From: a virus
IMG/VR virus record: IMGVR_UViG_3300037264_003470
Location: 1-63,163 of that record
Length of the DNA: 63,163 nt
Reading direction: 5' to 3' (one strand)
The translations under genes and the position numbers were made by a program. Under the pieces are notes generated by a model. That model searched no databases, was not told the origin of the DNA, and worked only from the letters and a program-made list of their open reading frames with translations. Every line of letters begins with the position of its first letter. The stretch's first letter is position 1. Of the stretch, positions 10,524-63,163 are shown piece by piece.

Positions 10524-13500
10524 TTATCTTGGTGGAATAACTAAGTTAGTCAGCAATTTTTCTAAATCTGGACTTGGTTTTAATTCCACTGGCACCCCGT
10601 TCCATCGCATCATGATTTCTGGATTCTCAGGCATTACTAATTGAATAGTTCTTGGAATATTTTCAATGATTTCTATAGTTTTTGGTATGCCTGTAACCTG
10701 GAGAGTCTGTGGCATTCCTGTTACTTCTAACTTAATAGAAGTAGGGAAATTAGGTGCAGGTTCGACCAAAATTTTACGAGGAACATCTTTTGCATCAAGT
10801 ATAATTCTCTCTGGTAGATTATGAACTATCTCGATACTCTTTGGAATATCCCCACGAATAAGGATCGTATCTGGTATAGGCTGACTTGGCCCTATAACTT
10901 TAATTTCCTCTGGTAAGTTTCCTCTTAAGAAAATCTCTTGAGGTATGTCGTGCATTACCTTTATATCATTAATTTTAGGTACTACCAACTTAATTTCAGA
11001 AGGCAATAATTCACTTAAGTTAATAGCCAAATTATCATCATCAATTTCCTGCGTCATTTGTCGTCTGTTTGGTGCAACAGTCATTGGTGGTGCAGCCGCA
11101 AAAGCCATTGATGTAGATGGGCATACAACTTGTACAGTTACAACTGGTGGTGTACCCCAATCAACTGAAATTACTGGTGGTGGGCAGAAGCTTATGCATG
11201 GGAAACTTGGCGGCGCACAGAAGCTTATGCATGGGAAACTTGGCGGCGCACAGAAGTTAATACATGGAAATACTGGTGGTGGACAGAAGTTAATACATGG
11301 CAACACTGGTGATGGACAAAAACTGATACATGGGAAAGCTGGTGGCGTACAGAAGTTAATACAATCAATACTTGGCGGCGCACAGAAGCAAACAGGACTT
11401 ATTTTTACGTTTACATCAACATCCAACGATATTTTATCAAACACTGGTGGTGGACAAAAACTGATACATGGGAAAGTTGGCGGCGCACAGAAGTCAATGC
11501 ATGGGAAACTTGGCGGCGTACAGAAACTTATGCATGGGAAACTTGGCGGTACACAGATGTTAATACATAAATCTTCTGGTATGCAGAAACTAATACATGG
11601 GAACACTGGTGGTGGACAGAAACTTATACACTGAAAGCTAGGAGGTTCACAGAAACAAATAGGCTCCAGACTTAAATCCACAATTACATCAAATTTGATA
11701 GGAGATATAACAGGGAATGGAGCAAAGCTAATTGGTGGCGCTGTTGGAAATGCACAGAAACTTACACACTGGAAACTAGGAGGTTCACAGAAGCAAATAG
11801 GGCTTATTTTTACGTTTACATCAACATCGAATGATATTGTATCAAACACTGGTAACGGCGCGAAACTAATAGGAGCAAACGCTGGCGGTGGACAGAAGCT
11901 TACACAATGAAAATCTGGTGGTGGACAGAAGCTAATACACTGGAAGCTAGGAGGTTCACAGAAACAAATAGGCTCCAGACTCAAATCCACAACCACATCA
12001 AATTTGACAGGAGGTATAACAGGGAATGGAGCAAAGCTGATTGCTGGCACATTGCAGAAACTCACACACTGGAAGCTAGGAGGTTCACAGAAACTTACAC
12101 AATTAAACTTTGGCGGCTCACAGAAACAAATAGGCTCGATACTTAGCCCTACGGCCACATCGAATGATATTTTATCAAACACTGGCAACGGCGCGAAACT
12201 TATAGGAGCAAACGCTGGTGGTGGACAGAAACTAATACACTTAAAATCTGGTGGTGGACAGAAACTAATACACTGGAAGCTAGGCGGCTCACAGAAACAA
12301 ATAGGTTCTATGCTTAGCCCTACAGCCACATCGAATGATATTTTATCAAACACAGGCAATGGGGCGAAACTAATAGGGGCGAACTCTGGCATATTGCAGA
12401 AGCTTATACAGTCAAACTTTGGCGGCTCACAGAAACAAATAGGTTCTATGCTTAGCCCTACAGCCACATCGAATGATATTTTATCAAACACTGGTAACGG
12501 CGCGAAACTAATAGGAGCGAAGCTTGGCACATTGCAGAAACTTAAACAGTCAAACTTTGGCGGTTCACAGAAACAAATAGGTTCTATGCTTAGCCCTACA
12601 GCCACATCGAATGATATTTTATCAAACACTGGTAACGGGGCAAAGCTAATAGGAGCGAAGCTTGGCAATGAACAGAAGCTTATACAGTCAAACTTCGGCG
12701 GCTGGCAGAAGCACACAGGCTCCATGCTCACGTCTAGTATTATGCTAAATCTTACAGATTCTATGCTTGGGAATGGTGCGAAACTAATCACGCCAAAACT
12801 TGGCGGTTCACAGAAACAAATAGGTTCTATGCTTAGTCCTACAGCCACATCAAACGATACCCTATCTAGGTTTGGGAATGGCGCGAAACTAATAGGGGCG
12901 AAGCTAGGCGGTTCGCAGAAGCACACAGGTTCCAGGGTTAAGTCTATAGTTACATCAAATGATACTGGTTGGATGTTTGGGAACTGAGCAAAGCTAATAG
13001 GGGCGAAGCTAGGCGGTTCGCAGAAGCATATAGGGTCTATGCTTAGTCCTACAGCCACATCAAAAGACACTCTATCTATGCTTGGGAATGGTGCAAAGTT
13101 AATTAAACTAAAGCTTGGCGGTTCGCAGAAGCATACAGGCTCCATGCTTAAGTTTAATTGCATTGATATAGGATCAAACTTCGGTGGCTGGCAGAAGCAT
13201 ATAGGCTCCATGCTCACATCTAGTATTATGCTAAATCTTACAGATTCCATGCTTGGGAATGGTGCAAAACTAATTACGTCAAACTTTGGCGGCTCACAGA
13301 AACAAATAGGTTCTATGCTTAGTCCTACGGCCACATCGAATGATATTCTGTCAAAGCTTGGGAATGGTGCAAAGCCAATCACATCAAAACTTGGCGGTTT
13401 GCAGAAGCATATAGGCTCGAAACTAATAGGGGCAAAGCTAGGTGGTTCGCAGAAGCACACTGGTTCGATACTCAAATCTATAACTACGTCGAAGGATACG

Positions 13501-14627
13501 ATGCTTGGCATACAACAGCCAACCAAGGATATAACGCTAGGTAAATGGCATCCTTCTAGTGATATTACGCTGATTTTACATGGACTAACTATTTGTATAA
13601 CTTGTGGTGTTTTACATGCTTCAATTACAGATATACAACAAGATATTTGTGACATTGATATCTGTGAAGGACACAAGTTTACTTCTGGTAATAAAATAGG
13701 TGGCAAATTTAATAGTGGTCCAGGGCATATTTGTTTTGGAGCTATAAACTGTGGAAACGCTGGTATATCAGGAATATGAACCACAAATGGTACAGACGGG
13801 TTTGGTAGATTAATGCCGCAGCAGAACTCGTTTGGTGGCATTGGGCTTTGTACTAGACAACAATTAGCCGCACAAACTGTTACAGTAGGGTTATATGGCC
13901 CAGCACTTATGTATTGATGAACTCCAGATAGCTGAGTGTTTTCTTTAAATCCGTCACCAAAATCAAGTTCAAAAGAAAGATAATTACCAAAAATTCGAAT
14001 ACAATATTCAGCTAGGCCACCAGTGTTATTAAATTCAAATTCAACGTCAGGGCAGGCGTCATCACCCACTTGTGGGCAGCATCCTACCATTGAAGAGATT
14101 GATGAAGTGAGTGGGGCTGCATGTAAGGCATCTGGACTAGCTGCTAATGCATTAGTTTTCTGAACTTGTAGAGGCAATAAGTTCTTTCTTACGTTTTGTT
14201 GAGTTTTAAGTTGTGGTCCTACTTTTAATACATCACCAATATCACCTATTGCATCTTCAATTGCCATGACAGCATCTACTAATTGGTTGTGGGTCTGTGC
14301 CACTACATTTGAGTATATTGATGTGCCTTCATAATAGGACTGTGGCTCACCTTCCACCCCACGGATACAATCTTTTAACTGGTCTACTTTTCCATCTTCA
14401 TTAAGATTTACTGCGTCATAATAAATTAATTCGTCAGCGATAGTTACGAAACCGTTTTCAGGCCATATTTCTACTGAATTAGCATCTTGAGGAACGATGT
14501 TGATTAAATCGTCTAGTCTTTCTAAATTTTTGGACAAAGTGGCCTGCGTACTGTTTTTTACGTTGAACAGCGTGTAATCTGAATCGAGAGCAATCGGATA
14601 TACTGGTTTCGGTATCCCTCGCGGCAC
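10524..14627 (-). CDS. Giant fibre-like protein with Cys-Phe-Cys repeats
   Basis: The 1367-residue protein starts at a GTG with a strong SD (AAGGAG). Residues 1-135 match the N-terminal domain of the two neighbouring fibre-like proteins, and residues about 185-255 form a PKD-like domain (LDFGDG). Residues about 376-1155 are a tandem repeat region. The unit alternates ISFAPFPS-type strands with SFDVAVGLSIEPICFCEPP, and there are 17 Cys-Phe-Cys motifs plus many C-I-S-F-C motifs. Residues 1190-1367 are a different degenerate repeat around IP.xI(I/L). The alternating pattern suggests an elongated beta-solenoid; the cysteines could bind metal or be disulfide-linked. It is probably a tail fibre or spike shaft. 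No homologous family is recalled. Confidence 0.85.
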   Translation of the reverse strand: MPRGIPKPVYPIALDSDYTLFNVKNSTQATLSKNLERLDDLINIVPQDANSVEIWPENGFVTIADELIYYDAVNLNEDGKVDQLKDCIRGVEGEPQSYYEGTSIYSNVVAQTHNQLVDAVMAIEDAIGDIGDVLKVGPQLKTQQNVRKNLLPLQVQKTNALAASPDALHAAPLTSSISSMVGCCPQVGDDACPDVEFEFNNTGGLAEYCIRIFGNYLSFELDFGDGFKENTQLSGVHQYISAGPYNPTVTVCAANCCLVQSPMPPNEFCCGINLPNPSVPFVVHIPDIPAFPQFIAPKQICPGPLLNLPPILLPEVNLCPSQISMSQISCCISVIEACKTPQVIQIVSPCKISVISLEGCHLPSVISLVGCCMPSIVSFDVVIDLSIEPVCFCEPPSFAPISFEPICFCKPPSFDVIGFAPFPSFDRISFDVAVGLSIEPICFCEPPKFDVISFAPFPSMESVRFSIILDVSMEPICFCQPPKFDPISMQLNLSMEPVCFCEPPSFSLINFAPFPSIDRVSFDVAVGLSIDPICFCEPPSFAPISFAQFPNIQPVSFDVTIDLTLEPVCFCEPPSFAPISFAPFPNLDRVSFDVAVGLSIEPICFCEPPSFGVISFAPFPSIESVRFSIILDVSMEPVCFCQPPKFDCISFCSLPSFAPISFAPLPVFDKISFDVAVGLSIEPICFCEPPKFDCLSFCNVPSFAPISFAPLPVFDKISFDVAVGLSIEPICFCEPPKFDCISFCNMPEFAPISFAPLPVFDKISFDVAVGLSIEPICFCEPPSFQCISFCPPPDFKCISFCPPPAFAPISFAPLPVFDKISFDVAVGLSIEPICFCEPPKFNCVSFCEPPSFQCVSFCNVPAISFAPFPVIPPVKFDVVVDLSLEPICFCEPPSFQCISFCPPPDFHCVSFCPPPAFAPISFAPLPVFDTISFDVDVNVKISPICFCEPPSFQCVSFCAFPTAPPISFAPFPVISPIKFDVIVDLSLEPICFCEPPSFQCISFCPPPVFPCISFCIPEDLCINICVPPSFPCISFCTPPSFPCIDFCAPPTFPCISFCPPPVFDKISLDVDVNVKISPVCFCAPPSIDCINFCTPPAFPCISFCPSPVLPCINFCPPPVFPCINFCAPPSFPCISFCAPPSFPCISFCPPPVISVDWGTPPVVTVQVVCPSTSMAFAAAPPMTVAPNRRQMTQEIDDDNLAINLSELLPSEIKLVVPKINDIKVMHDIPQEIFLRGNLPEEIKVIGPSQPIPDTILIRGDIPKSIEIVHNLPERIILDAKDVPRKILVEPAPNFPTSIKLEVTGMPQTLQVTGIPKTIEIIENIPRTIQLVMPENPEIMMRWNGVPVELKPSPDLEKLLTNLVIPPR
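11160..13500. repeat. DNA repeats encoding the Cys-Phe-Cys region
   Basis: About 2.3 kb of related, imperfect tandem units. Several roughly 110-base blocks between 12.1 and 12.7 kb are nearly identical, while units near 11.2-11.6 kb are short, 30-40 base repeats. Recent unit duplication is likely. Long plus-strand open frames here are artefacts of the repeat. Confidence 0.9.
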
Positions 14628-57347: not shown

Positions 57348-57403
57348 TAAATATATAATGTCTTGGTGTATAATAAAAAATTGGCGGCGGCGATTTTTGG
57401 AAA

Positions 57404-57535
57404 ATGGAAAAATTAGTTTTTTTAGATATGTGTGTGGAAATTGAAAAATCCCTGGCGTGGAATTTTGAAATTGATTCTTTAAAAGAACTAACTGGTATTG
57501 CGTCCACGGTAGGCTCCCCTATGTTACTTTTTTAA
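57404..57535 (+). CDS. Possible 43-residue protein
   Basis: An ORF of 43 codons: MEKLVFLDM...SLKELTGIASTVGSPMLLF. It has a GGAAA-like SD just upstream. It is the only candidate coding sequence in the AT-rich spacer at the left edge of the GC-rich array. Confidence is limited by the short length. Confidence 0.35.
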   Translation: MEKLVFLDMCVEIEKSLAWNFEIDSLKELTGIASTVGSPMLLF

Positions 57536-57621
57536 ACAGAAAATGAAATTAATTTCTCCTTTCTTAATTATGTTAGTACAACCTCAATAGCAATTCAATG
57601 GGCATGGGCGATGCCCCCACG

Positions 57622-57747
57622 TTAGCACGTTGCCATACGCTTGCACCAGCGTAGGCTGCGCCACTTGCCATACCACGCAAGGCGTGCTTGCGTCTTGAAG
57701 CGGCGTGCCCGCTTGCTCCCGTCCACGATGCAGCTTGACTTCTTCAT
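57622..57747 (-). CDS. 41-residue highly basic protein
   Basis: A 41-codon ORF with a strong SD (AGGAGG). The product (MKKSSCIVDGSKRARRFK..., ending KRMATC) is very rich in Lys/Arg/Trp and likely binds nucleic acid or membrane. It is the leftmost gene of the cassette array. A GC-rich hairpin (GGGCAT/ATGCCC) follows. Confidence 0.55.
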   Translation of the reverse strand: MKKSSCIVDGSKRARRFKTQARLAWYGKWRSLRWCKRMATC

Positions 57748-57767
57748 AGGGGTATCCTCCTACCCCA

Positions 57768-57790
57768 TTCAGTACAACCGCAATTAGAGG
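57768..57790 (-). promoter_or_regulatory. Representative promoter-like core of the cassette array
   Basis: Core copy 21 bases 5' of the 41-residue gene. On the minus strand it reads CCTCTAATTGCGGTTG then TACTGAA. The short distance to an SD-linked ATG leaves room only for a transcription start just after the TACTAAT-type element. No -35 is evident, so a phage-specific RNA polymerase or factor is suggested. Confidence 0.55.
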
Positions 57791-57800
57791 TTCATTAGTA

Positions 57801-57828
57801 AAAAGGGCAGGGTTGCGGTCCCCTGCCC
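57801..57828 (-). terminator. Terminator hairpin of the first cassette
   Basis: On the plus strand AAAA GGGCAGGG, 8-base loop, CCCTGCCC; on the minus strand it is followed by a T5 run. It ends the bL12-like gene (57844). Confidence 0.75.
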
Positions 57829-57843
57829 TTACCCCTAACGTTG

Positions 57844-58065
57844 TTACGCGGCGTCCAGCAACTCCATGCCGAATTCGACGGCTTCCTTCGCTTCGCGGAG
57901 GCCGATGCCCGTCTGCGTGCGGAGGTGCTTGATCGCCATGATCTTCTTTTCGTGGAGGTCCACGCCGAAGTCGCGGAGCATCTTGAGCATCTTGAGGGCC
58001 GCGCGGGTGTCGCGGATCATTTCGTCGCGGGCCGACAGGGGCGGGTTGTAACCAGTGCTGTTCAT
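57844..58065 (-). CDS. Ribosomal bL12 C-terminal-domain-like protein
   Basis: The 73-residue protein has KKIMAIKHLRTQTGIGLREAKEAVE (about 40-64), which matches the bL12 (L7/L12) C-terminal domain (KxAVIKxVRExTGLGLKEAKxLV). The bL12 N-terminal dimerisation domain and hinge are absent, leaving a stand-alone factor-binding domain. bL12 CTD recruits EF-Tu, EF-G and other GTPase factors to the ribosome. SD TGGAG. Confidence 0.7.
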   Translation of the reverse strand: MNSTGYNPPLSARDEMIRDTRAALKMLKMLRDFGVDLHEKKIMAIKHLRTQTGIGLREAKEAVEFGMELLDAA

Positions 58066-58172
58066 CGTTCGTCTCCAGAAAGGGGTGATCGTCGCTACAC
58101 TGTAATTAGTACAACCTCAATTAGAGGTTCATTAGAGAAAGGGCAGGGTTGCGGTCCCCTGCCCGTCTCGCC

Positions 58173-58619
58173 TTAGTCGAGTAAGGCGGCGACTTCGCAG
58201 CAGACAAAACCGCAGTCGATTGCTACTGCCATCGGCAGCGCCAGTAGCAACGGGCTTCCCGTCAGTGCAGCGATGGACAAGGAACAGTGCCAAACCGATA
58301 GCGCCAGCAGGCCAACGCCAACGCAAGCCGTGAGGATTGCTGCCCTGCGCTGGCCGCGCTTGTAAAGCAGACTGGCCACCTTGCCCAACACGAGGATGAT
58401 GACGGGGACGATGAGGCCCATGCCCCAACCCGCCCAACCGATTTCCGCGTGCTGCGCGTTGGCGTAGCCGTTCAGCAGCGCCGACAAGATCGCCATGATG
58501 ACAACGCCAGCGTTGGCGTAAGCCGTCAAGTGATCGCCCTTCACAGCGACGGGCTTGGCCTTGCGAGCGGGCTTGCGGGCGGGCTTGGCGTCGGTCAGCT
58601 TCAGTGCAGTGGCGTTCAT
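58173..58619 (-). CDS. Four-TM membrane protein
   Basis: The 148-residue protein starts with a basic, Ala/Lys-rich stretch (ARKPARKAKPVAVK) followed by four predicted transmembrane helices (about 38-55, 63-85, 92-111 and 118-145). It is a membrane protein of unknown function in the cassette array. Confidence 0.65.
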   Translation of the reverse strand: MNATALKLTDAKPARKPARKAKPVAVKGDHLTAYANAGVVIMAILSALLNGYANAQHAEIGWAGWGMGLIVPVIILVLGKVASLLYKRGQRRAAILTACVGVGLLALSVWHCSLSIAALTGSPLLLALPMAVAIDCGFVCCEVAALLD

Positions 58620-58709
58620 CGCAGTTCTCCGTAAGGGGTGACTCGTCCTACACCTGATTTAGTACAACCTCAATTAGAGGTTAATTAGGGAGTGGGCGCT
58701 CCCTTCCCC

Positions 58710-58949
58710 TTAGTATTCGTCCACCTCTTGCCAGTCGTCGCCACGGTAGTCGGGGCCGTCGTCCTCATCGGCGTCATCGGGCCGACACGTCGCGCAGATC
58801 GCCTTGAACGTTTCCCACGTCACGCGCTCGCCGCTCTCGCCAATGCGGAGGTAAGTGGGGCGCGGCCCACTGTAGTTGCGCATCTCCTCCAGCGTGAACA
58901 CCGCACGACTGAACTCGCCAGCGCCGTTGTCAACGTACAGTGCGAACAT
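58710..58949 (-). CDS. Small acidic protein
   Basis: The 79-residue protein ends with an Asp/Glu-rich tail (DDADEDDGPDYRGDDWQEVDEY), a pattern of DNA-mimic or inhibitor proteins in early phage regions. This is inference; there is no family match. A GGGAG/CTCCC hairpin and the next core flank it. Confidence 0.6.
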   Translation of the reverse strand: MFALYVDNGAGEFSRAVFTLEEMRNYSGPRPTYLRIGESGERVTWETFKAICATCRPDDADEDDGPDYRGDDWQEVDEY

Positions 58950-59038
58950 GTCAGGCTCCGTAAGGGGTGATCGTCGTTACAACCCAATTAGTACAACCTC
59001 AATTAGAGGCTGATTAGGGAGTGGGCGCTCCCTTCCCC

Positions 59039-59404
59039 TTAACTCCAGTGTAGTCCTCCCGTCAGCGCCACGTCCACGCCGATCCCGTTCGCCTGCAACA
59101 AGCGGGCCGCGCGGCTGAGGTCGTCCTCATGGCCAGCGCAGTCTTCCCCGATCCCGTCCACGGGACGGAACTTCCCCCAGCCGAACGTGAGGAAGCCGTC
59201 CAAGTCCCCGATGGGGCCGTCGCTATCGCGCTCCTTCCACTGGCGATAGCCGTCCTCATACTCATTCCAGGCAGTCGCCGCAGCGCGTTCGGCATCGTGC
59301 CGCTTGGCCATTTCGGTCATGCGGTCGTGCGTGCCGCTGGGGACGCGAGCCAGGACTTCCAAGGCGGCGCGGTCGGTCGTGTTCGGATAGAGGCGGGTTC
59401 CCAT
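59039..59404 (-). CDS. Small hypothetical protein
   Basis: The 121-residue protein is rich in Asp and Arg, helical at the N-terminus, with FLTFGWGKFRPVDGIGEDC. No family recognised. GC-rich codons as in the rest of the array. Confidence 0.55.
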   Translation of the reverse strand: MGTRLYPNTTDRAALEVLARVPSGTHDRMTEMAKRHDAERAAATAWNEYEDGYRQWKERDSDGPIGDLDGFLTFGWGKFRPVDGIGEDCAGHEDDLSRAARLLQANGIGVDVALTGGLHWS

Positions 59405-59696
59405 CGTCAGACTCCAGTAAGGGGTGATCGTCGCTACAACCCAATTAGTACAACCTTGATTAGAGGTTCATTAGGGAGGAACGGCTGGACGGCGCAAAGT
59501 CGGTCGAGGTTCGAGGTTAAAATGGCCCGTAATCGCGCCAGGATCGCTTGAGACGAGCGCAAACGGGTCGAGGCTATGTCGGGTCGGTTTTAGGTTTGGA
59601 GGGCTTAAAAGCGATTTAATCGCATTCCAGGCTGGCGCTAGTTTGTACACTATAAATTGGCATTAAATGAGGTTGTACTGATATTAAATTGGTAAT
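59405..59696. other. Non-cassette spacer with an inverted core copy
   Basis: This spacer is longer than the others. It contains the core of the 59404 gene (59444-59466), then about 190 bases without a convincing gene, a GCGATTTAATCGC hairpin (59611-59623), and an isolated copy of the core on the plus strand (GAGGTTGTACTGAT, about 59669-59682). This could be the position of a small RNA or a displaced cassette. Confidence 0.45.
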
Positions 59697-59697
59697 A

Positions 59698-59718
59698 AAA
59701 AACCCACCCTTGCGGGTG
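59698..59718 (-). terminator. Rho-independent terminator
   Basis: CCCACCC/GGGTGGG with TTGC loop; on the minus strand it is followed by a T6 run. It ends the 104-residue gene (59730). Confidence 0.9.
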
Positions 59719-59729
59719 GGCTGTGTCGG

Positions 59730-60044
59730 TCAAACCTCGACCGTTTCCTGCCCGTTGGCGATACGGGCAAGCTGGCCAGCGTACTTGTGCAGCATACGGC
59801 GGGCTGCGCCAAGCTGATTGACAGACAACGGGCAAGGATAGCGCGGGTCGGGTCGGAGGCACTTCTGCGCCAAGTCGGAACCGAACTTGGCATCCCTGTA
59901 ATTGAAGCCGCGCCCGTTGTCGTGCTTGGTGGTTTCGTCGCTTTTCTCGTCCTCGGTCTGGCGCTCGTACAGGACGACAAGAGCGCGGTAGACGGCCTTG
60001 GGGTTGTTGGCCAGCAGCACGCGGATGGATTCGGTAGTGTGCAT
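59730..60044 (-). CDS. Small conserved-type phage/plasmid protein
   Basis: The 104-residue protein has GFNYRDAKFGSDLAQKCL and PLSVNQLGAARRMLHKYAGQLARIAN, a segment seen in various phage or plasmid proteins of unknown function. It probably binds DNA or protein. It is the only cassette with a canonical U-run terminator with a Gly-rich stem. Confidence 0.55.
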   Translation of the reverse strand: MHTTESIRVLLANNPKAVYRALVVLYERQTEDEKSDETTKHDNGRGFNYRDAKFGSDLAQKCLRPDPRYPCPLSVNQLGAARRMLHKYAGQLARIANGQETVEV

Positions 60045-60149
60045 CGCGGTACTCCGTAAGGGGTGATCTTCACTACACCCCGATTAGTACAACCGCAATG
60101 ATCCTGTAATGGGAAAGGGCAGGGTTGCGGTCCCCTGCCTTCCCTGGAG

Positions 60150-60395
60150 TTACTCGTCGTACTTGCCGTGATACTGGCGGTCGCTCACCTTGCGGTCGAG
60201 GTTGCGACCGATGCCGCGCGATTCGGGCCGCTTGGCAGGCGGGTCGCAATCGGCGCAGGCGCTCTTGTGTTCGTTGTAGGCGCTCCAGAAAGCGTGCTTG
60301 CAAGAGCAGCAAAGCCGCTGCACCAGGATAGCGCCGCCCGTCGTCTTGCGGGACGCGATGACCTCACCGACGCCGACTTGGACCAGAGCGTTCAT
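60150..60395 (-). CDS. Small zinc-ribbon-like protein
   Basis: The 81-residue protein starts at the ATG at 60395 (SD AAGGAG). It has CCSCKHAF and SACADC, likely a zinc ribbon, followed by a basic tail (RGIGRNLDRKVSDRQYHGKYDE). Confidence 0.6.
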   Translation of the reverse strand: MNALVQVGVGEVIASRKTTGGAILVQRLCCSCKHAFWSAYNEHKSACADCDPPAKRPESRGIGRNLDRKVSDRQYHGKYDE

Positions 60396-60486
60396 GCGAT
60401 GCTCCTTGAAAGGGGTGATGTTCGCTACACCAGGATTAGTACAACCGCAATGATCCTGTAATGGGAGTGGGCGCACTCCCTCGGTG

Positions 60487-60672
60487 TTACTCCGCTTTCC
60501 AGCGGCGGGCCTTGCGTGCGGCCTTGATGCGGCGGCGCTCCCTGCGCTTGTCAGCAGCAGCGGCCATACCGATCTGATCCTCGATGCGGAACAGGTTGCC
60601 GCGTTCGGGCGCAGGGCCGAGCTTGATGGTGAAGCCCTTGTCATTGCGGCGGATTGCGGTTGTCTGGTGCAT
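60487..60672 (-). CDS. Small basic protein
   Basis: The 61-residue protein has a C-terminal basic helix (KRRERRRIKAARKARRWK), likely nucleic-acid binding. The SD is AAGGAG. The core is only 20 bases from the ATG. Confidence 0.6.
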   Translation of the reverse strand: MHQTTAIRRNDKGFTIKLGPAPERGNLFRIEDQIGMAAAADKRRERRRIKAARKARRWKAE

Positions 60673-60741
60673 GATTGTTCTCCTTACTCTATTTAGTACA
60701 ACCGCAATGATCTTGTAATGGGAGTGGGCGCTCCCTTGCTG

Positions 60742-60915
60742 TTAGCAGACCTGATACTCATGTCCGTTCACAGTCAAGACGCCGCCGAAGAACGTCCACG
60801 TCGGTTCGCTGGTCAGCGCAGCTTCATGCGCCGCAAGCAATTGCTCCATGTCCTCCTCGATCTGTTGCTTGCTCAGACTCTGGCCGCTACGGTCGGTTGC
60901 GTTCAGAATGGTCAT
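60742..60915 (-). CDS. Small hypothetical protein
   Basis: A 57-codon ORF: MTILNATDRSGQSL..., helical acidic middle, ending VNGHEYQVC. It has a strong SD (AAGGAGG), a core 19 bases upstream and a hairpin downstream. Confidence 0.6.
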   Translation of the reverse strand: MTILNATDRSGQSLSKQQIEEDMEQLLAAHEAALTSEPTWTFFGGVLTVNGHEYQVC

Positions 60916-60985
60916 GCTTCCCTCCTTGCTCCAATCAGTACAACCTCGATTAGAGGATGATTAGGGAGTGGGCGCTCCCTTCCCC

Positions 60986-61261
60986 TTAGTCCTGGGTGCG
61001 GCAGTAGCACTTGTAGGGCTTGTTATCGGGGCCGTAGACGACGAGGTTGAAAGACGAGCCACTGCCGTCTTCTCTCTGAATGCTGGACAGGATGCAAGGG
61101 ATGCCATTGATGCTGATGCCGCCCTTGCATCCGCTGGCCGTGAGCGCGTTGAACAGGGTGAACTTGGTCATCGGCGTGGCACAACGCATCAAGCGCTGTT
61201 CCATCGTCAAGTCGAGCGTGGCAGTGGCAGAGCGCCGAGTCGAGAGAGTCCCTTGCAGCAT
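60986..61261 (-). CDS. Small hypothetical protein
   Basis: The 91-residue protein is mixed alpha/beta with MTKFTLFNALTASGCKGGISINGIPCILSSI; an internal ATG at MTKF could also be used. The SD is TGGAGG. No family recognised. Confidence 0.5.
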   Translation of the reverse strand: MLQGTLSTRRSATATLDLTMEQRLMRCATPMTKFTLFNALTASGCKGGISINGIPCILSSIQREDGSGSSFNLVVYGPDNKPYKCYCRTQD

Positions 61262-61359
61262 GACAGCCTCCAGTTAGGGTTATCGTTACACTTCATTTAG
61301 TACAACCTTAATTAGAGGATAAAAAGGCAGGGTTTGCGTTCCCCTGCCCACCCCTAACG

Positions 61360-61563
61360 TTATGCTACCATGTCTTTGAGTTGTTCGCTCTGGCTCTTGG
61401 CGTGGTTGAACGGGACCAGATAGAACCCGTGCGGGATGACGTGGCCAAGCCAGAACAATTCGCCGCCGCGCCAGACCAGCATCAGCTTCCCCCGCTTGGC
61501 ATGGGAATAGGTGAAGTCGTCAGCAAGGACGCGGGCCAACTGGCGAGAGATGTAGGTTCGCAT
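61360..61563 (-). CDS. Small hypothetical protein
   Basis: The ATG at 61563 (MRTYISRQLARVL) has an SD (CGGAG); the frame is open further. The 67-residue product is basic, with GELFWLGHVIPHGFYLVPF. No family recognised. Confidence 0.55.
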   Translation of the reverse strand: MRTYISRQLARVLADDFTYSHAKRGKLMLVWRGGELFWLGHVIPHGFYLVPFNHAKSQSEQLKDMVA

Positions 61564-61666
61564 CGCAGTTCTCCGTAAGGGGTGATGTTGGCTACACACA
61601 AATTAGTACAACCTTAATTACAGGATGATAACAAAAAAAGGCAGGGGTTTCCCCCTGCCCTATTGT

Positions 61667-61945
61667 TTACGCGGCCTTGACCGCGAGGAGCGTGTCGAGC
61701 GGCGACTGCCCCTCGAAGTCGGCCAGGTAGGAAATGGGGTTCATCTTCCGCGCCTCCTGCGCCTTGTTCTTGCTCAAGCCCGTCTTGGCGACGACCTCCT
61801 TGACGGACAAGAGCCGACGCATCAGCGGGCCGATGACGGGCTTGCCCTTGTCGGACGGCACCGTGGGATTGTCCACGATGCGGGACACCTTCAGACCGTT
61901 CTCGATGCGGGACAGCAGGACCACCGTGACGTTGAGCAGCTTCAT
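61667..61945 (-). CDS. Small hypothetical protein
   Basis: The 92-residue protein contains LSVKEVVAKTGLSKNKAQEARKM, a helix-turn-helix-like segment, so it may bind DNA. The SD TGGAG is in the same relation to the core as in other type-A cassettes. Confidence 0.55.
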   Translation of the reverse strand: MKLLNVTVVLLSRIENGLKVSRIVDNPTVPSDKGKPVIGPLMRRLLSVKEVVAKTGLSKNKAQEARKMNPISYLADFEGQSPLDTLLAVKAA

Positions 61946-62036
61946 CGCGTTACTCCAGAAAGGGGTGATGTTCGTTACAACCCAATTAGTACAACCTTGA
62001 TTAAGGGATCATTAGGGAGTGGGCGCTCCCTGTCCC

Positions 62037-62225
62037 TTATTCCCAATACGTCCCTCCCAGCGCTCCGCGCACCTTGACCAGACCAGCGGAGCGGAGCGCA
62101 TCTTCGCGTGCCTTGCGTGACGCATTCCGCTTGTCCCGCTTGCGCTTGCCTTCGTCGCAATCGCGGCAGAGGTTGTCGCCGTCAGCCGTGGCAATCTCGC
62201 AGCCGCATTTCTCGCAAACCTTCAT
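62037..62225 (-). CDS. Small zinc-ribbon protein
   Basis: The 62-residue protein starts MKVCEKCGCEI and has CRDC, a zinc ribbon (CxxC...CxxC), followed by a basic helix (KRKRDKRNASRKARED). It is a plausible RNA polymerase or ribosome-binding protein. Confidence 0.65.
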   Translation of the reverse strand: MKVCEKCGCEIATADGDNLCRDCDEGKRKRDKRNASRKAREDALRSAGLVKVRGALGGTYWE

Positions 62226-62294
62226 GGTCGCCTCCAGTGTTAGGGTTATACCACAATTAGTACAACCTTAATTAGAGGAAGATTGGGCGCTCCC

Positions 62295-62468
62295 TTAGCG
62301 TGGTTCAACTTTGGTATAGTGCCAAAAGTGGCGGATTGTGCCGTCCCGTCTCGCATCGTCCAGGCGCTTTACCTCTTCGTCGGCCCGTTCTTTGGTCCAA
62401 ACGACCTTGACAACGGTGATAGCACCGTCTTGAAAATGATGCCGAACAACCGCGAATGCGTCATCCAT
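62295..62468 (-). CDS. Small hypothetical protein
   Basis: A 57-codon ORF: MDDAFAVVRHHFQDG..., with helical KERADEEVKRLDDARRDG. The SD AAAGGGG is next to the ATG, and the core is 18 bases upstream. Confidence 0.6.
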   Translation of the reverse strand: MDDAFAVVRHHFQDGAITVVKVVWTKERADEEVKRLDDARRDGTIRHFWHYTKVEPR

Positions 62469-62543
62469 TGTTTCCCCTTTGTAGGTCTAGTACAACCTTA
62501 ATTAGAGGAAGATTGGCAGGGTTTGCGGTCCCCTGCCCACCCC

Positions 62544-62735
62544 TTACTTGACGTACTCTTTGCTTTCGCCCGTCTTGATGCTGACGACCTCGTACTTGCG
62601 CTGAATGAGGTCTTTCAGGGTTTGCGGGTGAACGCCCGCCATGCTGCGGATGACGACGGTGAATTCCTGCACCGCATGGTCGAGGGTGACGGTCTTTCCA
62701 TCGGTCAGCTTCTCGCCGTAGAGGTGAATCATCAT
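62544..62735 (-). CDS. Small hypothetical protein
   Basis: The 63-residue protein is alpha/beta and mixed in charge (MMIHLYGEKLTDGKTVTL, then KDLIQRKYEVVSIKTGESKEYVK). The SD is TGGAG. No family recognised. Confidence 0.6.
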   Translation of the reverse strand: MMIHLYGEKLTDGKTVTLDHAVQEFTVVIRSMAGVHPQTLKDLIQRKYEVVSIKTGESKEYVK

Positions 62736-62824
62736 GGCACTTCTCCAGTGTTAGGGTTATACCTCAATTAGTACAACCTTAATTAGAGGAAGATTGGCAG
62801 GGTTTGCGGTCCCCTGCCTTCCCC

Positions 62825-63085
62825 TTAGTGCGGCACCGTTGCGAGCAGCTTTTGCAACTTCTCTTTCTGTTTCCAGTGTTCCGCGTTCCAGATGTTCTCA
62901 TTCAGAGCGCGGCGGATGCGGTCGCGTATCTCTCGCGTCTTGTAAGCGTAAGAGCATTCCGCCCACATCTCTTCCGCGAAGTCGAGCAGCGTCAGCGCCT
63001 CCTCGTACTTCTCCGCGTTGCAGAGGTCCAGAATGCGGTCCTTCTGGCGAACAAGCAGATTGTCCAGAGCGTATTCAGCGATCAT
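62825..63085 (-). CDS. Small helical protein
   Basis: The 86-residue protein is helical, with TPR-like repeating pattern (AEKYEEALTLLDFAEEMWAECSYAYKTREIRDRIRRAL). The upstream gene probably lies beyond the window end, with a hairpin visible at 63146-63161. Confidence 0.6.
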   Translation of the reverse strand: MIAEYALDNLLVRQKDRILDLCNAEKYEEALTLLDFAEEMWAECSYAYKTREIRDRIRRALNENIWNAEHWKQKEKLQKLLATVPH

Positions 63086-63163
63086 GGTCGCCTCCAGGGT
63101 TAGGGTTATACACCAATTAGTACAACCTTAATTAGAGGATAATTAGGGAGTGGGCGCTCCCTT

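Follow-up and report, generated by a model that had tools for sequence, protein, structure and literature searches.

Small genes with repeated promoter-like spacers form the end of a putative cassette block in a huge phage

The IMG/VR virus record IMGVR_UViG_3300037264_003470 was analyzed over its whole length of 63,163 nucleotides (the window), and we focus here on an array of small minus-strand genes with repeated spacers at positions 57572-63163. The first 57 kb carry structural genes, e.g., for a baseplate wedge and a head protease, and have a GC content of ~40% vs ~60% in the array. On the minus strand of the array, the 11-nt core GGTTGTACTRR (pattern GGTTGTACT[AG][AG]) occurs 17 times between 57573 and 63127, vs 0.0023 copies expected from a first-order Markov model, and no exact copy is present in window positions 1-57.5 kb. 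An open reading frame (ORF) of 41-148 aa with an ATG start and a ribosome site begins 18-40 nt after 16 of the 17 cores. Core 17 (57573-57583) leads into an AT-rich stretch, where the sole ORF is a doubtful 57-aa GTG ORF. This bears out the original prediction that such a core precedes each of 16 small minus-strand genes, and the coordinates it gave for the array were correct. The cassette products gave only one Pfam match above cut-off, to the bL12 C-terminal domain.

The spacers had also been predicted to be near-identical. This holds for the 11-nt core, which is nearly invariant across the window, but not for its surroundings: the hairpins fall into two main types, the pre-core sequences into two (CCTCTAATTRA and GATCATTGC), and the leaders into three. 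A clear hairpin of the alpha (GGGAG-CGCCCA-CTCCC), beta (GGCAGGG-GACCGCAA-CCCTGCC), or classic U-tailed type follows 14 of the 16 genes. The remaining two are followed by a truncated half-hairpin (gene 3, 62295-62468) and a weaker stem (gene 16, 57622-57747).

A pattern scan of IMG/VR yielded a single related core-rich contig, IMGVR_UViG_3300037137_001027 (159 kb; hereafter G001); other contigs matching the core patterns mostly had one match each, which we took as chance. Nearly the entire window aligns collinearly with G001 at 72-91% DNA identity, including the sharp junction at the start of the array. A chimeric contig, suspected from the GC jump at 57.6 kb, was thus ruled out by the shared junction and the near-complete collinearity. 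The 94 cores of G001 all lie on the same strand, span 11.8-95.2 kb (~83 kb), and end at the same boundary with AT-rich late genes; no core was found in the G001 late block. The promoted block of G001 also carries larger genes (RIIA, NAD synthase, RNA ligase, and a DUF932 gene). A homologous array, with TAAAGCTGTACTWA as its core, is present in the 595-kb huge phage LR756511.1, where 34 copies of AAAGCTGTAC lie on one strand at 3.2-18.9 kb. With respect to the remainder of the promoted block, this array (L010 1-19000) is oriented opposite to G001 71-95 kb. The window contig ends within a repeated spacer, which truncates the array. Judged from sequence, the window array covers just the final 6 kb of a far longer block; it is not the stand-alone library of 16 genes first proposed, but the distal end of a block that has 94 cores in G001.

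The conserved upstream stretch in G001 is one uninterrupted block, TAATTgaGGTTGTACTAAt. Across the 94 sites, nucleotide 7 past the 11-nt core is a pyrimidine in 94% and nucleotide 8 is a purine in 95%, and the LR756511.1 array has a T-A step at the same distance from its core. An ATG begins exactly at that purine in 16 of the 94 sites, vs 0-3 at other offsets below 15. This points to a transcription start at the purine and implies that some of the mRNAs are leaderless. The start can likely be named to the base, as the purine that follows the pyrimidine ~7 nt beyond the core. We infer that the cores are active promoters and that the promoted block is expressed before the late genes. A sigma70 scan gave 2 sites vs 3.0 expected, with none at any core, and a k-mer search for a late promoter gave no clear candidate, only ribosome sites and AT-rich words.

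The phage multisubunit RNA polymerase (phrog_3148 and PF00562) was not found in all 595 kb of LR756511.1, while two proteins with sigma-70 region 4 were. A specificity factor on the host polymerase is therefore a plausible reader of the core, and our preferred guess is a phage sigma or other specificity factor acting on the host RNA polymerase. The single-subunit RNA polymerase profile PF00940 gave no match, a weak negative since it was silent in control genomes too. The sigma-factor proteins of LR756511.1 are encoded at L065 1444-2380 and L066 1486-1983; in L065, region 4 is encoded by a short ORF whose sequence overlaps with the end of a second one.

Hairpins with loops like GACCGCAA or GAACGCCAA and a stem of at least 5 pairs were searched for in the three phages; 30 were found on the sense strand and none on the other strand. 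These include at least six inner stems, all paired: CAGGG/CCCTG, GCGGG/CCCGC, CGGGG/CCCCG, GGGAG/CTCCC, GGAGG/CCTCC, and GGCGG/CCGCC. The loop is conserved while the stems vary yet stay paired, which argues for a functional RNA element. No known RNA family matched at the gathering threshold, and one weak sub-threshold match was disregarded.

Comparison with G001 shows, at the level of sequence, that genes and spacers have separate histories. Fourteen window cassette genes have G001 orthologs, and the ortholog is the top match for all 14; for the spacers of these genes, the orthologous spacer is the top match in only three cases for the leader, five for the pre-core, and four for the hairpin region. 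G001 spacers that precede unrelated genes share identity over 84, 72, 68, and 60 bp; exact repeats reach at most 50 bp in the window and 84 bp in G001. Twelve of the 14 shared genes are collinear, and two cassettes have moved: the bL12-like gene 15 (57844-58065; G001 92276) and the 57-aa gene 8 (60742-60915; G001 87451), which has different neighbors in each of the three phages. The leader of the relocated gene 15 ends in CACCCCTTTCTGGAGACGAACG, matching the unrelated gene at the same G001 position, and this places one joint within the leader. The spacer preceding gene 3 is identical over 50 bp to that of its neighbor, and the gene is followed by half an alpha hairpin plus beta-type sequence, which we read as a recombination scar. 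The cassette at G001 93227 is missing from the window. In the comparison with LR756511.1, collinearity of the shared genes is partial (Kendall tau of 0.64 for 20 ORF pairs), with several displaced. This is the comparison of related phages by which exchange at the spacers was to be judged, and it agrees with that proposal: cassettes have been gained, lost, moved, and re-spliced. Gene content is not fixed among the relatives, with moved, replaced, and missing cassettes relative to G001 and a different order again in LR756511.1.

Altogether, we consider it probable that each gene in a long block of this huge tailed phage has its own promoter, that the array forms the distal end of the block, and that its spacers serve as recombination joints. 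The unit would consist of a promoter core, a leader with ribosome site, a small gene, and a hairpin. The core TAATTgaGGTTGTACTAAt would act as a phage-specific promoter that starts transcription ~7 nt downstream, at the purine of a pyrimidine-purine step, and the hairpin with its conserved loop would, at least partly, terminate or trim the upstream transcript. Because core, leader, and hairpin are all repeated, a gene landing between two spacers would be expressed at once, and the spacers could act as joints: through homologous or short-homology recombination there, genes would be inserted, removed, moved, or replaced and parts of spacers swapped. General phage recombination would presumably carry out the exchange.

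Several points weigh against this reading. Promoter activity is assigned to the cores from sequence, no RNA polymerase or sigma factor was found in G001 (a fragment), and neither of the LR756511.1 sigma proteins is tied to the core. The close genomes compared are only two, and both are metagenome assemblies. In addition, just 5 of the 14 window hairpins have a clear U-run; read-through transcription is therefore possible, and full termination at every gene is not supported. The hairpins predicted after most genes are indeed present, but with 9 of 14 lacking a clear U-run, the term "terminator" applies only in part.

Could the array consist of promoters without any special exchange, where selection keeps the spacers alike and the gene changes are ordinary phage mosaicism? 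The predominant collinearity with G001 (12 of 14 shared genes) and a core that is identical everywhere, as selection would give, are what this explanation expects. We nonetheless regard it as unlikely: spacers that are not orthologous match exactly over 60-84 bp, also at leader bases beyond the core, orthologous genes bear different leader and hairpin types, and the scar unites two spacer types.

It is very unlikely that the core is instead a translation-related or protein-binding site near start codons. Core and start codon lie at widely varying distances (18-40 nt in the window), in contrast to the fixed pyrimidine-purine step, the ribosome site is separate from the core, and an ATG at the predicted start fits leaderless mRNA. 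One-way repeats beside start codons do have a precedent in the start-associated sequences (SAS) of Cluster K mycobacteriophages, which precede many non-structural genes and include the ribosome site, at 3-7 bp from the start codon (PMC3203893). The core described here differs from these in lying farther upstream, at a variable distance, and apart from the ribosome site.

The promoted block also has a steep gradient in codon composition. Third-position GC of the G001 cassette genes rises from 0.45 (11-45 kb) to 0.83 (92-95 kb; Spearman 0.87), toward the most densely promoted end of the block. It is 0.78 in the window array (57622-63085) and ~0.31-0.38 in the late block, and LR756511.1 has a similar tendency. 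The gradient may stem from adaptation to a GC-rich host, a foreign origin, or biased gene conversion. The last of these belongs to an idea to which we give little credence, that the spacer (core plus constant-loop hairpin) is a dedicated exchange site read by a phage factor, a promoter-bearing analogue of an integron, and that frequent exchange drives the climb from 0.45 to 0.83 through biased gene conversion. In comparison with integron cassettes, the cassettes here bear their own promoters. Finally, that the reordering is an assembly error due to repeats is highly improbable even though both close genomes are metagenomic and the window contig terminates in a repeated spacer, since exact repeats in the window array do not exceed 50 bp, the moved genes have diverged between genomes rather than being duplicated, no identical repeat lies at the scar, and the third genome has its own order.

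The preferred reading, individually promoted cassettes joined at their spacers, has partial parallels in known systems. Promoter-early-stem-loop (PeSL) cassettes were reportedly described by Arbiol in 2010 and Comeau in 2014. In T4-type phages, PeSLs place a hairpin and a promoter between small genes, are dense in variable regions, and are linked to gene shuffling, according to one later account (PMC4503421). As far as that account extends, the likeness lies in a hairpin followed by a promoter between small genes (here at 14 of 16 window genes) and in modular gene shuffling, seen here against G001 and LR756511.1. The PeSL promoter is an early promoter of the host sigma70-like type, which is absent at every core here; we take this promoter as defining and thus do not file the array as PeSL. 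Relative to the same account, the array also has a contiguous promoter block, a fixed start 7 nt downstream, 94 copies in 83 kb, a conserved hairpin loop, and some leaderless genes. The matches bearing on a possible T4-like grouping are RIIA (G001) and a baseplate wedge (window). A separate local repeat was observed near a phrog_21015 relative in a 366-kb phage (G003; L062, IMGVR_UViG_3300020154_000003): CCTTAATTAAGG ... CGTTAATATAC separates small genes, at some sites preceded by U-tailed hairpins, and its core sequence is unrelated to that of the window.

Near-identical intergenic repeats also carry promoters in halovirus HF2, where promoter activity was shown in a reporter (PMC8707807); their positions are strongly conserved among relatives, whereas genes and spacers are reshuffled here. 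The phiKZ-type early promoters of AR9 form one contiguous conserved block with a start ~6 nt downstream (PMC5312081). The core here shares the contiguous block and the start a fixed few nucleotides downstream, but the phiKZ-type consensus is AT-rich and GGTTGTACTAA is not, and the multisubunit RNA polymerase of that type was not found in LR756511.1, the window and G001 being only fragments. The SPO1 host takeover module is a cluster of small phage genes with several promoters, operons, and tested effects (PMC6873191). The array resembles it as a small-gene cluster, but SPO1 genes are in operons while each gene here has its own core. A host-takeover role for the cassette genes, suggested solely by this resemblance, is unproven.

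Features of the array in the window, listed in the direction of transcription; percentages are amino acid identities
Feature	Position	Strand	Remarks
Core 1	63117..63127	-	Inferred transcription start 63109
Gene 1, 86 aa	62825..63085	-	Ortholog G001 89281, 88%; then beta hairpin 62796-62818
Core 2	62768..62778	-	
Gene 2, 63 aa	62544..62735	-	Ortholog G001 89627, 87%; then beta hairpin 62515-62537
Core 3	62487..62497	-	Spacer 62488-62537 is an exact 50-bp copy of 62769-62818
Gene 3, 57 aa	62295..62468	-	No relative found; G001 has an unrelated gene (89899) at that place; likely recent arrival
Truncated alpha hairpin GGGAGCGCCCA fused to beta-type ATCTTCC	62284..62294	-	Read as recombination scar
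Core 4	62257..62267	-	
Gene 4, 62 aa, two CxxC pairs (zinc-ribbon-like)	62037..62225	-	Ortholog G001 90246, 92%; alpha hairpin 62014-62031
Core 5	61986..61996	-	
Gene 5, 92 aa	61667..61945	-	Ortholog G001 90520, 71%; U-tailed hairpin 61638-61661
Core 6	61603..61613	-	
Gene 6, 67 aa	61360..61563	-	Ortholog G001 90945, 63%; U-tailed beta hairpin 61325-61349
Core 7	61297..61307	-	
Gene 7, 91 aa	60986..61261	-	Orthologs G001 91252 (86%), LR756511.1 17105 (41%); alpha hairpin 60963-60980
Core 8	60935..60945	-	
Gene 8, 57 aa, relocated cassette	60742..60915	-	G001 87412, LR756511.1 16026; alpha hairpin 60720-60735
Core 9	60693..60703	-	
Gene 9, 61 aa, basic	60487..60672	-	Ortholog G001 91613, 90%; hairpin 60463-60480
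Core 10	60436..60446	-	
Gene 10, 81 aa, two CxxC pairs	60150..60395	-	Ortholog G001 91870, 93%; beta hairpin 60118-60139
Core 11	60084..60094	-	
Gene 11, 104 aa, phrog_21015	59730..60044	-	Classic terminator 59701-59722, stem covaries with G001
Inverted core copy	59671..59682	+	Within conserved non-coding stretch, directed into a terminator
Core 12	59445..59455	-	
Gene 12, 121 aa	59039..59404	-	Ortholog G001 93548, 77%; alpha hairpin 59017-59032
Core 13	58988..58998	-	
Gene 13, 79 aa, acidic	58710..58949	-	Ortholog G001 94003, 93% over 56 aa; alpha hairpin 58687-58704
Core 14	58659..58669	-	
Gene 14, 148 aa, hydrophobic, membrane-like	58173..58619	-	Ortholog G001 94321, 79%; beta hairpin 58141-58164
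Core 15	58106..58116	-	Leader end CACCCCTTTCTGGAGACGAACG is that of unrelated G001 gene at same position
Gene 15, 73 aa, bL12 C-terminal-domain-like, relocated	57844..58065	-	G001 92224; U-tailed beta hairpin 57803-57830
Core 16	57769..57779	-	
Gene 16, 41 aa, basic	57622..57747	-	No relative in G001, one in LR756511.1 (51% over 35 aa); weak hairpin 57603-57621
Core 17, last of array	57573..57583	-	Conserved in G001 (95163); no clear cassette gene downstream

The inverted core at 59671 probably drives no gene. The non-coding stretch that holds it (59480-59700) looks near-unchanged in G001, while the flanking genes are ~80% alike, and it is perhaps an RNA or an origin. The gene 15 protein has a partial bL12 (L7/L12) C-terminal domain, with relatives in several PHROGs of unknown function. 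Just beyond the last core, window positions 57377-57483 share 74% identity with the extreme end of the LR756511.1 record, their sole DNA match in the phage collection. Elsewhere in the window, 10524-14627 encodes a 1367-aa protein with many near-repeats rich in Cys/Pro (FCEPPSF-like), which is variable relative to G001.

Huge phages hold hundreds of orphan genes of obscure control and turnover. On the reading we prefer, a phage could rearrange its small genes without rewiring their control, in a way that works like the PeSL cassettes of T4-type phages but with an unrelated promoter. From a single sequence pattern, ~94 transcription starts of an uncultivated phage would be predicted with single-base precision. 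The same pattern would mark the joints where genes enter and leave, and could be used to search other huge phages for cassette blocks. It also makes testable the idea that promoter-hairpin shuffling, as known from T4-type phages, has several evolutionary origins with unrelated promoters.

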